NCBI RefSeq assembly: GCF_003025005.1
Contig: NZ_PVSS01000002.1
Location: 266,091-330,090 of the forward strand
Direction: 5' to 3'
DNA from: Brumimicrobium mesophilum
GTDB lineage: Bacteria > Bacteroidota > Bacteroidia > Flavobacteriales_D > Crocinitomicaceae
DNA: 64,000 nucleotides
Under the pieces are notes generated by a model that was given only the letters and a program-made list of their open reading frames with translations, ran no database searches and was not told the origin of the DNA. A program made the translations under genes and the position numbers. Below, one piece after another: positions 50,001 through 54,680 of the stretch (the first letter of the stretch is position 1; every line of letters begins with the position of its first letter).

Positions 50001-50843
50001 ATGCAAAGCAAAATGGAACCTAAATTAAGAAATGTATCACATGAAGATTTGCAACTTTTTTATGAAGTATATGGCACTGGAAACACCGTTATTCTTTGCT
50101 TCCATGGGAACGGCAGATCAGCAGAAGACTTCCGGTTCCTAGAGAAAAAATCTCGAAAAATCATATCTGTACATCTATTCTTACATGGCCATTCTATATT
50201 TAATCCAAGTAGAATTGATAAGGATTTAATAACTAAAGAACATGTTGAAAAATTGTTAGAAAAAATATTCATTAAAGAAAAAGTCCAAGATTTTCATTGG
50301 GTCGCGTATTCTCAAGGCGGCCGATTTACTTTAAGTGTATTTCCAACTTTTGCAAAACGCGTTAAAAGTATGTTTTTAATTGCTCCAGACGGATTGAATG
50401 ATAAAAATTTCTATAGTTGGTCTCAAAGACAATGGTGGACTAGAAAATTGTTCAAACGATGGGTAAAAAAACCAGAAGAATTAATGTCTATTTCTAGAAC
50501 ATTAGAAAAAGGAAAAATTATACATCCTAAAATACTAAGCTTTTTAGACTACTACACCTCAGATCAAGAAAAACTAGAAATAGCTTTTAAATCTTGGAGC
50601 GCCTTCAGAAATTTAAGACCTTCTATGGAAGAAATAAAATCTGCCATTGATAAAAACGCTGTAAATTTTAATTTAATTATTGGAGAACAAGATCAAATAA
50701 TCACCCTAAAAAGCGCTTCGTTGTTTTTGAACAAACTCAATAAACCCGAAGCTTTAAAGACTATTCCATATGGACATGATATTTTCAAACCTCATATAGA
50801 GAAAGAACTTTTGGCTTTGATGACTTTTGAAGCGTTTGATTGA
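50001..50843 (+). CDS. Alpha/beta hydrolase
   Basis: A 280-residue cytoplasmic hydrolase with the fold's landmarks: oxyanion region CFHGNGRSAEDF near residue 33, nucleophile elbow AYSQGGRFTL (Ser near residue 104), acid in LIIGEQDQI and His in YGHDIF close to the C-terminus. No signal peptide. The substrate is unknown. Met5 (50013) is an alternative start. It is convergent with the lipoprotein-like gene set downstream and divergent from carB. Confidence 0.85.
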   Translation: MQSKMEPKLRNVSHEDLQLFYEVYGTGNTVILCFHGNGRSAEDFRFLEKKSRKIISVHLFLHGHSIFNPSRIDKDLITKEHVEKLLEKIFIKEKVQDFHWVAYSQGGRFTLSVFPTFAKRVKSMFLIAPDGLNDKNFYSWSQRQWWTRKLFKRWVKKPEELMSISRTLEKGKIIHPKILSFLDYYTSDQEKLEIAFKSWSAFRNLRPSMEEIKSAIDKNAVNFNLIIGEQDQIITLKSASLFLNKLNKPEALKTIPYGHDIFKPHIEKELLALMTFEAFD

Positions 50844-50885: not shown

Positions 50886-51635
50886 CTAAAATCCAGATAA
50901 TACTAGAAAATACAAACCGAAAATCAATGGAAAGTATATTAATCCAATTATGCGTAATGTTTTCTTAAAAGACCAAATTTCATCACCATCTACCCTCATA
51001 TAGAGTCTTAAAACATGATAAACAAAGAGCGAAATAAGGAAATACAGTCCTATCACTATTAATATTAATCCGGGTATGATACCTATTAAAGGAAGAAGTA
51101 GTACAAAAGCTCCAGTTAAAACAACTCCTGAAAGTCCAGTCAAAAAGTAAATTAACAAAAATCGAAAAGCTCTTTCAAACGGATCCAAAATAAAAGGCTC
51201 CTCCGGTTCTTCAGGTTCAATTTTCTCAACATTTTCTACTTTAATATTTGAAATTTTCTTCTCATAAAGCACTATCTCGCTACTTTCAGTGTTTACATTC
51301 ACATCTTTAAATTTCATATCTTCCACATATGAGGTAGATATGTTCTTATTTAAATCAATTCCCTTTTTTCTTATATTATTTTCTGAAATCACTTCATTTA
51401 TTTCTTGATCTGTTTCAAGTGTTAAATTAGATGCTTTGAAATGATTGGAGTACCTTGAGTTTTTATCTTCGTTCTTATGAGATGAAGAAATATTTGAATT
51501 CCCTTTCTTTTGAAAATGCCATCCCCTGCTATGTTTTCTTTTATCAAAAACACCTTTATTCACTGCTCCACACGAAGAAAAGAGAGCAGTTAAAACAACC
51601 GAGATAAAGAAAAGATGTGATGTTTGAAATTTCAT
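50886..51635 (-). CDS. Lipoprotein-like membrane protein with KRKH-GWHF motif (paralogue 1)
   Basis: A 249-residue protein of unknown function. Lipoprotein signal (LTALFSSC, Cys22), then GAVNKGVFDKRKHSRGWHFQ, a signature shared with the two genes upstream. A polar, Asn/Lys/Glu-rich stretch (about 45-145) with EKIEPEEPEEP leads to a membrane part of three or four helices (about 158-205 and 230-248). A lipid-anchored N-terminus on a protein that also spans the membrane several times is unusual. No catalytic motif seen. Last of three tandem genes on the minus strand; 39 bases separate it from paralogue 2. Confidence 0.75.
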   Translation of the reverse strand: MKFQTSHLFFISVVLTALFSSCGAVNKGVFDKRKHSRGWHFQKKGNSNISSSHKNEDKNSRYSNHFKASNLTLETDQEINEVISENNIRKKGIDLNKNISTSYVEDMKFKDVNVNTESSEIVLYEKKISNIKVENVEKIEPEEPEEPFILDPFERAFRFLLIYFLTGLSGVVLTGAFVLLLPLIGIIPGLILIVIGLYFLISLFVYHVLRLYMRVDGDEIWSFKKTLRIIGLIYFPLIFGLYFLVLSGF

Positions 51636-51674
51636 AAAAGTAGTCTTACTCCTGTTATGGTTAATACTCTAAAA

Positions 51675-52880
51675 TCAAATTCCATTCGCACCTAAAGATA
51701 CAAGCAAGGTGATAAATGCTACAATAACTGTGGCTATAATAAGCGCTTTATTGCCATTACCTTCTTTGTTTTCCTTGTCTTTGTTAAATAATCTAGAGAT
51801 AGCCATTACATATAAAAAAATAATTAGCGCTACGCCAACAGCTGCAAACAACAACCCAGCTACTTCTCCTCCGGAGCATATAATTAGACAAGACACTGCC
51901 GCTATTACATATAGTAATAACAGCAATAATAAAGTGAATAGGATAATAAGTAAAACATTAACAAATGTTGTGTTACCAGATGAAGTTTGGTTTATTGGCT
52001 CAACATTATTGATAATTCCAGAAGAAAGTGACCAATTGGAAAATTGAGAGATATTATTCATCATTCCACCGGCCATAAAAAAACCAAAACTAGATGATGT
52101 ATTGACCGCCCCAATCAACGCAAGTTTCTTGGTCGAATTCAACGACCCTTGATTTTTCCAAAATTCCCATAATCCATAACTCATTCCAATTCCCGCCAGT
52201 GATATTCCTAAATGGATATTAGAAAAAGGAATTTCAAGCATGTGCCCTAGTCCTAATGATGTTCCAATCAATGCTCCTTTAGCACCAATCAATAAACTTC
52301 GTGATTGTTTGAGATTATCTGCCGCCCAATGCTGAATTTTCCTTGTATGTCTCCTTTTCACGAGGAATGGAGCGAAAAATGATAGTAAAAAAAAGCTATG
52401 GTAATTCCAAGAGTTTGTGCTTGTAGCAGTATCATCAGCGCTACTCGTTTTCGTTTTGGATGTTTGAACCTCTTCCCTATCTAAATCGTGATTACTTGGT
52501 ATAGATTTTTTTAAATCTTCTTCTTTTGGAGTAATAGATCGATTTTCATCATTAATTTTTTCAACTTTATGATTTTTAGTTAAATGATTTTTTGAATTTC
52601 CATTTTTGAAATTATTCGCCACACCTTGAAAATCCAATACTACTTTTTCATTAAAAGTTGAAGAATTTAAATTTGATTCATTGATATTTCTGTTTTTTGA
52701 AAATTCTTCACGAGGAGAACTCTTTTCTGACGTTTTAGAAATATTACTTTTCTTATTGAAATGCCAACCTTTCAAATGCTTCCGCTTTTCGAATAAACCA
52801 TTTCCACTTGCTCCACAAGAATACAAGAACAACGATAAAAAGGAAAGTGAAAGTAGGTAAAATATAAATCTTGATTTCAT
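51675..52880 (-). CDS. Lipoprotein-like polytopic membrane protein with KRKH-GWHF motif (paralogue 2)
   Basis: About 401 residues from the ATG at 52880. The signal (SFLSLFLYSC, Cys22) is followed by GASGNGLFEKRKHLKGWHFN. A low-complexity Asn/Ser/Lys linker runs to about residue 140, then NSWNYHSFFLLSFFAPFLVK begins a membrane domain with about seven helices rich in Gly (KGALIGTSLGLGHML, GGEVAGLLFAAVGVALIIF) and ending in ALIIATVIVAFITLLVSLGA. The frame extends upstream to a GTG at 52928 that overlaps the end of paralogue 3, but the signal peptide fits 52880. The family is not recognised. Confidence 0.75.
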   Translation of the reverse strand: MKSRFIFYLLSLSFLSLFLYSCGASGNGLFEKRKHLKGWHFNKKSNISKTSEKSSPREEFSKNRNINESNLNSSTFNEKVVLDFQGVANNFKNGNSKNHLTKNHKVEKINDENRSITPKEEDLKKSIPSNHDLDREEVQTSKTKTSSADDTATSTNSWNYHSFFLLSFFAPFLVKRRHTRKIQHWAADNLKQSRSLLIGAKGALIGTSLGLGHMLEIPFSNIHLGISLAGIGMSYGLWEFWKNQGSLNSTKKLALIGAVNTSSSFGFFMAGGMMNNISQFSNWSLSSGIINNVEPINQTSSGNTTFVNVLLIILFTLLLLLLLYVIAAVSCLIICSGGEVAGLLFAAVGVALIIFLYVMAISRLFNKDKENKEGNGNKALIIATVIVAFITLLVSLGANGI

Positions 52881-52924
52881 AAGTTCTATCATTAGTGAAG
52901 TGAGTGTAAAAACTTTTCGATTAT

Positions 52925-53404
52925 TCACGAATAACCACCATAATAGTAACCAATAATATAAAGAATTCCAAAAAAGGCAATTGCAATTCCAAACCTAATT
53001 CCAGTTCTTCTCAAACTTTCTTGATAAATCCAAGAGTAATCTCCTACCGAGCGATTTCTAACTTGCATCGTGAAGTAATCAAATAATGTATATCCAAAAT
53101 AGAGAATTGATATTATGGATTGATTTCTCCTTATTACGATATTCGAGTGTGATTTAATGGCTAACTTGATATAATTCAGAAACTTGAAATCTCGAATCTA
53201 AATGAGTTTTTTTGAAACAATTACAAAATCCGTCTTTTCATTGTTGGAAACTGCGTTATTTTGGACGTTTTTGGCAGTTTTAAAGTGCCAACCTTTCAAG
53301 TGCTTGCGTTTTTCAAAAATACCATTAAAACTCATTCCACACGAATATAGAAAAGCTGATAAAACCAGAAGAGCAAGAAAATTAATAAGTAGCCTTGGTT
53401 TCAT
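52925..53404 (-). pseudogene. Lipoprotein-like gene with KRKH-GWHF motif (paralogue 3), interrupted by in-frame TAG
   Basis: Starts at the ATG at 53404 with a lipoprotein signal (LVLSAFLYSC, Cys22) and GMSFNGIFEKRKHLKGWHFK. The frame meets TAG at 53198-53200 (codon 69, after SKKLI) and then stays open in the same frame for 90 more codons to TGA at 52925-52927. The downstream part has two likely helices (SIISILYFGYTLFDYF; RFGIAIAFFGILYIIGYYYG), the architecture expected by comparison with paralogues 1 and 2. Thus either a nonsense mutation, a sequencing error, or a naturally shortened 68-residue lipoprotein. If read through, the product has 159 residues. Confidence 0.7.
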
Positions 53405-53489: not shown

Positions 53490-54680
53490 CTAAATTTTCT
53501 TCAATTGCACTGAAATTATTTGAACTGTTGTCGAATCAACTTTAAACTTCTCACTTACTCCAAATCCAAAAATTCCAATAATATTGCCCTTTTCACATAC
53601 TAAAACTTGAATATCCTCCTTTACATGGGCCAAAACTTTTCTGTCTCGCAAAAACTTCCCAACTGACTTTTCTCCTTTCATTCCCAAAGGTTGAAAACGG
53701 TCACCAGATTGCCACTTTCTGAAAGTTAGCCTCCCTTTTATTAAAGAAGCGTCTATTAACAAATCATTTTGATTTAACTCTACATCTTCTTTTGAAAGTT
53801 CTTGAATTTCCAATTGAAACTGAGTTTCTTCTTCTCTTCGCTTCACAAAAATCAACTCCTTTCCTTCATTCCATAATTTAGTAAAATCATTACCAATAAA
53901 CTTTCCCTTTTCTGAAATTGTGAGTTTTTTAATCTCTGAGGTTGAGTATTCACCCAAATCTTGTTCCGATAGAATATACTCTTTCTCCCAAATTGTTAAT
54001 TCGTTCCAATCGGCAATTAATATGGAATCTGGAACTGGAAATCCTTTTAAAAACTTTAAAACTTGCTGATAAGATTCGACAATTGAAACTACATCTTGTA
54101 TTGGGAAATTATTGGATTTCAACCAAGGTAAAATTTCGTTTCTGTACCAATTTCGTGTATAATTATTTGAAGCATTCGAAATATCTTCACGCCATTTCCA
54201 ACCTTGTTTGTTGGCCAAAGAAATGAGATCATTTTTTGTATGTTTCAAAAGCGGACGTAAATATCCATTTCTGAAAACAGGCATTCCCGCTAGACTTCTT
54301 ACCTTTCCGCCTCTTCTTAGCTGTAAGAAGAATGTCTCCACTTGATCATCATAATGATGCGCCAAAAGCACTGTTCCCCCCTCGTTTTCAATAACTTCGT
54401 CAAACCAATTGTAGCGCAATTGTCGTGCTGCCAATTGCGTATTCATCTTATTTTCCTTACTGAATTTCTTCGTTTCAAATTCATTTACTCGAACAGGAAT
54501 ATTTAACTTTTTGGCCAATGCACGTACAAATGCTTCGTCACCATTCGAAGATTCTCCTCGTAAATGAAAATTACAATGCAAAATACCTACATCCTTTTTC
54601 TGTTCATGCATTAAATGCAATAATACAACAGAATCAACTCCTCCGCTGCAAGCAACCCAATATTTTGCTGAATTATCCAT
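53490..54680 (-). CDS. tilS: tRNA(Ile)-lysidine synthetase
   Basis: Converts C34 of tRNA-Ile2 (CAU) to lysidine, allowing AUA decoding; essential in most bacteria. The PP-loop SGGVDSVVLL lies at residues 9-18, followed by CNFHLRGESSNGDEAFV, LLAHHYDDQVETFFLQLRRG and the conserved region PLLKHTKNDL... REDISNASNNYTRNW. The C-terminal domain is present (KWQSGDRFQPLGMKGEKSVG, FLRDRKV). At 396 residues it is at the short end for the family. Its start overlaps the upstream pabB by eight bases. Confidence 0.95.
   Translation of the reverse strand: MDNSAKYWVACSGGVDSVVLLHLMHEQKKDVGILHCNFHLRGESSNGDEAFVRALAKKLNIPVRVNEFETKKFSKENKMNTQLAARQLRYNWFDEVIENEGGTVLLAHHYDDQVETFFLQLRRGGKVRSLAGMPVFRNGYLRPLLKHTKNDLISLANKQGWKWREDISNASNNYTRNWYRNEILPWLKSNNFPIQDVVSIVESYQQVLKFLKGFPVPDSILIADWNELTIWEKEYILSEQDLGEYSTSEIKKLTISEKGKFIGNDFTKLWNEGKELIFVKRREEETQFQLEIQELSKEDVELNQNDLLIDASLIKGRLTFRKWQSGDRFQPLGMKGEKSVGKFLRDRKVLAHVKEDIQVLVCEKGNIIGIFGFGVSEKFKVDSTTVQIISVQLKKI

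Follow-up and report, generated by a model that had tools for sequence, protein, structure and literature searches.

In Bacteroidota, the lipoprotein export signal (LES) is a short conserved stretch behind the lipidated cysteine that decides the destination of a lipoprotein (PMC5080379). The envelope proteins Pal and LpoB have a disordered spacer with a length requirement, which lets the protein span a set distance (PMC12826056). Spacers of the TonB type also span a set distance in the envelope in a length-dependent manner. Here we describe a locus that resembles the LES in its tag and Pal and LpoB in its linker. In a 64,000-nucleotide stretch of Brumimicrobium mesophilum (contig NZ_PVSS01000002.1, positions 266,091 to 330,090; "the window"), three tandem genes, P1, P2 and P3, begin with a lipoprotein signal followed by a basic and aromatic motif, the tag; in P1 and P2 a polar linker and transmembrane helices come next. 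By sequence, P1 and P2 are members of a modular lipoprotein family of Bacteroidia that had not been described. In this family the length of the disordered linker between tag and first helix is guarded, a new feature that we judge to be the most important one.

The LES is acidic and marks surface lipoproteins (PMC5080379), whereas the tag described here is basic and aromatic, contains an invariant Gly and stands on proteins with helices. An acidic LES close to the Cys was not found in 106 tagged proteins: between +2 and +6 (or up to the tag) 75 have no acidic residue and 31 have one. Retention in the inner membrane of the E. coli type is given by Asp at +2, and this residue was seen in 0 of the 106, although the rule may not hold in Bacteroidota (PMC5080379). 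Pal, LpoB and TonB reach the wall or a partner, whereas the arrangement proposed below would place the lipid and the helices of one chain in two membranes; kinship to these proteins was covered by general family searches only, none aimed at them. The C-terminal modules of some tagged relatives match Pmp3 (PF01679), TM2 (PF05154), DUF4190 (PF13828) and DUF4386 (PF14329), but these models exclude the lipid, the tag and the linker.

The tag follows the pattern K-R-[KR]-[YH]-x-K-G-[YFW]-[HYF] in a motif-only profile, and its consensus in the family is [IF]-[QE]-K-R-K-Y-x-K-G-[YFW]-[HY]-[VIF], mostly 4-14 residues after the lipobox Cys. Counted over 190 tags, the columns hold K (188), R (190), K/R (164), Y/H (190), any residue, K (133), G (190), Y/F/W (173) and H/Y/F (175). 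With a profile of lipobox plus tag (A2), matches were obtained in 119 of 295 class genomes (E<=0.01), and the motif occurs in 61 of the 156 genera sampled within the class. A tag-only profile (A4), in which 1 of 32 rows starts with Cys, was built against circularity and matched in 50 of 119 class genomes (E<=0.05). The tag is tied to the lipobox beyond chance: in the loci fetched for the A4 hits, a lipobox lies at most 22 residues upstream of 77 of 81 distinct hits (>=16 bits), while the baseline is 730 of 40,000 random positions and 1319 of 20,000 positions near starts of open reading frames (ORFs), i.e., 2-7%. The four others are a 215-residue protein without Cys (L081), ORFs of 32 and 48 residues, and a 54-residue ORF missing the Cys. 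L057 holds the same gene as L081; its tagged product has two helices and a stretch resembling a signal, but no lipobox Cys, and among full-length proteins it alone clearly breaks the lipid rule. With all loci pooled a lipobox was found in 190 of 197, a number that is biased, since many of these loci had been found with A2 or with P2 and P3 as the query.

A scan for [IF]QKRKYxKG matched 106 stretches, of which 65 were confirmed in 64 loci titled Flavobacteriales, Crocinitomicaceae, Cryomorphaceae, Salibacteraceae, Bacteroidales, Marinifilum, Chitinophaga metagenome-assembled genome (MAG) and similar. Two loci (L168, L200) of one MAG titled Saccharospirillaceae carry tagged genes of the Flavobacteriales type; this MAG is probably mislabelled or contaminated, because one of its proteins is identical to that of G057, from the order of the window. 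In a sample of the phylum the motif-only search matched in 5 of 247 genomes; beyond the class it gave two hits, both of them tiny ORFs (95 and 38 residues). A phylum search with the lipobox-containing profile A3 matched in 5 of 395 genomes, and was insensitive, as no more than 19 candidates were scored in each genome. Taken from sequence, the KRKY-KGYH-type tag appears to mark a modular family of lipid-anchored proteins in many Bacteroidia.

The modules behind the tag differ. An alignment of 109 tagged proteins (110 rows with a cut P1 fragment excluded; locus ends truncate P2 and a few more) has as its consensus the signal, the tag and a few scattered hydrophobic residues. Pfam (E<=0.001) recognised Pmp3 in 17 of these proteins, DUF4190 in 14, TM2 in 4, DUF4386 in 1 and a few others in one or two members; by our own profiles 46 of 197 are of the Pmp3 type and 12 of 197 of the TM2 type. 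The same tag precedes several unrelated helical modules (Pmp3, DUF4190, TM2, DUF4386 and the P1/P2 type). A reading of the window made earlier from the sequence only had proposed a common tag on different modules, and both the consensus and the Pfam spread bear this out across the class; it is not supported within the window trio, whose members appear to be paralogues with related C-termini. TM2 and P2-type modules were also found without the tag, and a genome from the same taxonomic family as the window (L012:1456-2211) has the P2 helical module without lipid signal, tag or linker. A tagged lipoprotein of 380 residues (L145:1225-2364) has a proline-rich linker and, by eye, a beta-barrel-like C-terminal part instead of helices, with no Pfam match.

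A DUF2752 gene together with a tagged TM2- or Pmp3-type gene is a conserved two-gene unit. Within 600 bases downstream such a gene was found behind 8 of 12 TM2-type genes (9 of 12 at a laxer threshold; the strict one is used here), 12 of 45 of the Pmp3 type, 1 of 108 genes of other types and 1 of 15 helix-less ones. Pfam confirmed DUF2752 in 8 of 72 scanned neighbours (of 147). Since DUF2752 adjoins mainly the TM2 and Pmp3 types, the genetic partner follows the module and not the tag. DUF2752 genes lie directly behind the tagged gene, often overlapping it, in L026, L050, L106, L127, L142, L169, L203, L207 and others. No mention of DUF2752 by name was found in the literature searched, subscription papers lying outside its scope.

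Linker length was measured by hydropathy, from the end of the tag to the first helix, in a first pass of 170 complete tagged proteins with a helix. After 21 proteins with an inserted small domain, rows with runs of N and helix-less rows were set aside, 147 linkers in 122 linker-sequence clusters were left, with percentiles 1/5/50/95/99 of 86.5/91/106/123/137 residues and a coefficient of variation of 0.12. The linker measures 86-138 residues in 145 of the 147, and the two outlying rows are measuring artefacts (L141 was read as 21 and is ~105 by eye; P2 was read as 154 and is ~120 by eye). A second sample from other genomes, collected with A2, gave 32 new tagged ORFs, 3 of them with the domain by pattern; among the 29 others, 25 linkers fall in 78-115, one is an artefact (27) and three at 148-166 have the inserted domain by eye. 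The range is 92-124 in the Pmp3 type (n=46) and 101-134 in the TM2 type (n=6), and it stays the same despite differing spacings between Cys and tag. The linkers are rich in K, S, E, T, A and N, and AlphaFold2 predicts them as unstructured, with a low predicted local distance difference test (pLDDT) score, in both proteins modelled (P2 and a fourth tagged protein of the same genome, C45, L004:886-1659, located elsewhere). The sequence D-[ST]-[AILVMT] is the sequon for O-glycosylation, and it is not enriched in the linkers (40 found, 41.8 expected).

Length is kept while sequence is not. Eight orthologous linkers from one site share as little as 21% identity, with many pairs at 21-33%, and every pair under 50% identity shows 3-8 gap events, yet they measure 104-121 residues. 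As a control, 13 of 30 loci yielded 15 TM2 ORFs that could be parsed, 8 of them untagged; in the class at large, most ORFs with TM2 are short. The TM2 module is preceded by 126-191 residues in the 7 tagged ORFs (6 by pattern, 1 by eye) and by -4 to 55 in the 8 untagged ones. When linker lengths were compared within genomes against 5000 shuffles, lengths within a genome were more alike than in the shuffles (F 4.10, 0/5000), also with mutually dissimilar proteins only (F 2.77, 26/5000).

Some linkers contain a domain of 57-60 residues, CDVI-x-NG-x-E-x-AKVLEI-x-IKYKKC-x-NLdGP, as seen in L004 (C45), L026, L051, L054, L107, L127 and L128. The total distance from tag to helix is then 120-191 residues (median 155, n=21); the domain adds to the total, so that about 100 residues remain unstructured. 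The C45 protein was modelled with a confident small barrel (pLDDT ~95) between flanks of ~88 and ~30 residues, for which confidence is mostly low. This barrel shows a weak likeness to SH3/Sm-like barrels (best Foldseek E 0.03), and the inserted domain has no Pfam match in the C45 protein.

One question raised by these lengths is what the linker would have to reach. Where lipid and helices share one membrane, we know of no minimum length for the linker that joins them. The floor of about 86 residues, the linkers that cannot be aligned, the unrelated modules, the inserted domains that are not deducted from the length and the likeness within genomes are as expected of a chain that bridges a fixed gap. 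A polypeptide has a contour length of ~0.35 nm per residue. The 86 residues correspond to ~30 nm of contour, more than the 170-260 Å quoted for the distance between membranes at other secretion systems, and GldM, at 180 Å, covers most of the intermembrane gap (PMC5790014). Such a fixed gap fits the periplasm, which leads to the hypothesis of a single-chain tether. The lipidated N-terminus would be taken to the outer membrane via Lol or another route, while the helices would remain in the inner membrane, so that one chain would link both membranes through the periplasm. The linker would act as a leash, and the tag, being next to the lipid, may work at the outer-membrane end as a dock or a sorting signal. 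Modules in the inner membrane would be interchangeable because they serve mainly as anchors, in some lineages with a DUF2752-family partner. We give this tether, drawn from linker length only, somewhat less than an even chance. That it represents a new class, in which lipid and KRKY tag dock at the outer membrane, the unstructured leash is tuned to the periplasm of each species and the inner-membrane modules plug in, is a more tentative suggestion.

Several observations weigh against the tether. We know of no precedent for a single chain that has its lipid in one membrane and its helices in the other. The distribution of the tag is patchy (50 of 119 class genomes, 5 of 247 in the phylum sample), and no helix was detected in 15 complete tagged ORFs, of which two have runs of N, several are fragment-like and one is the 380-residue L145 protein with its barrel-like part. 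Five linkers at a folD-linked site spread over 107-138 residues. The genome test weakens without the genus of the window (F 2.13, 186/5000; 597/5000 in an earlier, smaller version) and with, in addition, one protein per locus (200/5000), and shared ancestry is not fully excluded as the source of the genome effect. Constraint on the Cys-to-helix distance alone predicts a negative correlation between Cys-to-tag spacing and linker length, yet r is +0.25. Finally, the length floor can be inherited with one ancestral N-terminal cassette.

The main rival explanation is that these are inner-membrane lipoproteins anchored twice, with lipid and helices both in the inner membrane, the tag as a retention (Lol-avoidance) signal and the linker as a periplasmic loop with some other length-dependent task. 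The tag stands directly behind the lipid, where sorting signals are found, and the rules that sort inner from outer lipoproteins differ in Bacteroidetes (PMC5080379). It is also consistent with a control on 800 kb of the 3.88 Mb of the B. mesophilum genome (the C45 gene lies beyond this sample), in which 58 of 836 called genes are lipoprotein-like; at least two helices were seen in three of them, P1, P2 and a channel-like protein, and the lipobox of this last one was judged false. Two further lipoproteins in this sample, both untagged, have a single helix 212-214 residues behind the Cys; one untagged lipoprotein of this build (L266 4889-5663, helix ~214 residues behind the Cys) has by eye the look of Wza-type polysaccharide export. 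Yet an arrangement in one membrane leaves the floor near 86 residues without a reason and has to accommodate the helix-less tagged ORFs (15 complete ones, some of which are fragments), and we regard it as less likely than the tether. Another hypothesis is that one ancestral cassette of signal, tag and ~100-residue linker was shuffled onto membrane proteins, its length being inherited and not selected. Many members indeed seem homologous before the tag, 81 of 190 sharing a 14-residue spacing with a C-x-TSNDVVSN-like consensus, and the genome effect is weak after controls. However, the linkers are mostly unalignable (122 clusters among 147), they gain and lose segments and keep their range, this range is the same behind differing Cys-to-tag spacings, and inserted domains add length with no replacement; inheritance of the length by itself is in our view improbable.

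It may also be asked whether the trio is a local accident, in which a single lipoprotein gene was recently duplicated and the C-termini of the copies are decaying. The membrane domains had been taken as otherwise unrelated, but the last ~100 residues of the P1-type and P2-type modules match each other in hhalign (96.8%, E 2.1e-10), and the piece after the P3 stop matches the P1-type module profile (79%, E 1.6e-5). Compared directly by BLASTP, the ends of P1 and P2 match weakly (23% over 56 residues, with E 5e-4 in one comparison), and the module comparisons rest on short hydrophobic sequences and shallow alignments, in which composition may inflate scores; real homology is favoured because a polar turn behind the last-but-one helix is common to the modules. 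P1, P2 and P3 thus look like old tandem paralogues with related C-termini, and P3 is probably truncated. Around the tag P3 and P2 are identical at 12 of 13 residues, but 6 of those 12 codons differ silently, which shows old divergence, and the tag recurs in 50 of 119 genomes on unrelated modules. Recent duplication, which the sequence-only reading had named as a possible objection, is therefore refuted as a full account and is true only for the truncation of P3; a purely local accident is very improbable.

The same reading had proposed a search for recurring tandem clusters, and these were found in the genus, with the same neighbours at the same site, as three tagged genes in G002 and two in G004, and also elsewhere, e.g., in G144, G102, G137 and G171. 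In G009 the P2 relative is broken into a tagged ORF of 64 residues and an ORF of 350 residues in another frame. A fifth match in the genome of the window (C1, E 0.1) looks spurious.

No model of Pfam, NCBIfam or PADLOC recognises the tagged family as such. In NCBIfam the CCC membrane family ranks first at E<=0.002, where no model matches more than 4 of the 109 tagged proteins, and at E<=0.01 the top family among the 25 of 34 shown matches 5 of 109. NF052634 (Riean_0653 family) matches 2 of 109 weakly, with 19.6 bits in one against a cut-off of 57, and its own search reached a tagged gene (G108 C5) at E 4.5e-4; it was rejected as a parent family, the tag being present in 0 of 6 lipobox-like ORFs from 5 of its 10 best loci. 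Riean_0653 is a hypothetical protein with a haemolysis phenotype (PMC7881567). PADLOC (E<=0.01) matched 0 of 5 proteins (P1, P2, P3, the C45 protein and one DUF2752 neighbour) and gave scattered weak matches in the 109 (two proteins for one KwaA model and one for another, a single protein for each of three further models; best E 2.8e-5). A role in phage defence was dismissed on these results. The tag profile has no relatives among solved structures, its single match being at E 0.37. No description recognised as the tagged family was found in the literature on the tag, on TM2/Pmp3 lipoproteins and on tethers, subscription papers being outside the scope.

In the window itself, the three minus-strand ORFs with lipoprotein signals were confirmed by sequence (Table 1). 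An n-region, a hydrophobic stretch and a lipobox Cys are found in all three (FSSC in P1, LYSC in P2 and P3), as is the motif G-x-F-(D/E)-KRKH-x-(K/R)-GWHF, 6-19 residues behind the Cys. A polar linker followed by helices, which the sequence-only reading had assigned to the whole trio, is present in P1 and P2, while P3 ends at the TAG at 53198-53200. Its helix counts of two, three to four and about seven stood in part: P1 has about four, P2 has 6-7 in the low-confidence model or 4 by strict hydropathy, and P3 encodes none. P2 as listed begins at a GTG at 52928; its predicted structure (mean pLDDT 47) was too low in confidence and was left out of the fold search. A Pfam match of P1 to Yip1 is weak and under the cut-off, and the P1 and P2 modules have no match above the curated cut-off to Pfam TM2, Pmp3, DUF4190 or DUF4386. 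The trio is flanked by a hydrolase-like gene (50001-50843, plus strand) and a tilS-like gene (53490-54680, minus strand), both named from a reading of their sequence. Promoter-like sites in the region show no excess (8, against 12.5 in shuffles), and terminator-like sites number 3 against 1.5.

Table 1. Positions in the window of the P1, P2 and P3 genes and their parts.
Feature	Position	Strand	Remarks
P1, tagged lipoprotein, 249 residues	50886..51635	-	~4 helices by hydropathy
P1 tag KRKHSRGWH	51516..51542	-	first K = lipid Cys22 +10 residues; sequence, hand-counted
P1 polar linker, ~115 residues	51171..51515	-	coordinates hand-counted
P2, tagged lipoprotein, 405 residues from ATG	51675..52892	-	6-7 helices (low-confidence model)
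P2 tag KRKHLKGWH	52761..52787	-	first K = lipid Cys26 +10 residues; sequence, hand-counted
P2 polar linker, ~120 residues	52401..52760	-	first helix of model = 164-177; hand-counted
P3, tagged lipoprotein ORF, 68 residues	53198..53404	-	in-frame TAG end
P3 tag KRKHLKGWH	53285..53311	-	first K = lipid Cys22 +10 residues; sequence, hand-counted
Hydrophobic same-frame piece behind P3 stop	52925..53197	-	putative relic of P1/P2 C-terminal module

Under either explanation, none of the libraries searched has a separate entry for a motif that occurs in 61 of the 156 genera sampled in the class. The sorting of Bacteroidota lipoproteins to the inner membrane is unsettled in recent work (PMC13103446, PMC11885536), and if lipid and helices both sit in the inner membrane, the tag would be the missing inner-membrane sorting signal of these lipoproteins. 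If the tether is true, Bacteroidia would tie both membranes by one chain, with no need for the wall or a second protein, and the length of the leash would be a ruler of periplasm width that can be read from sequence.

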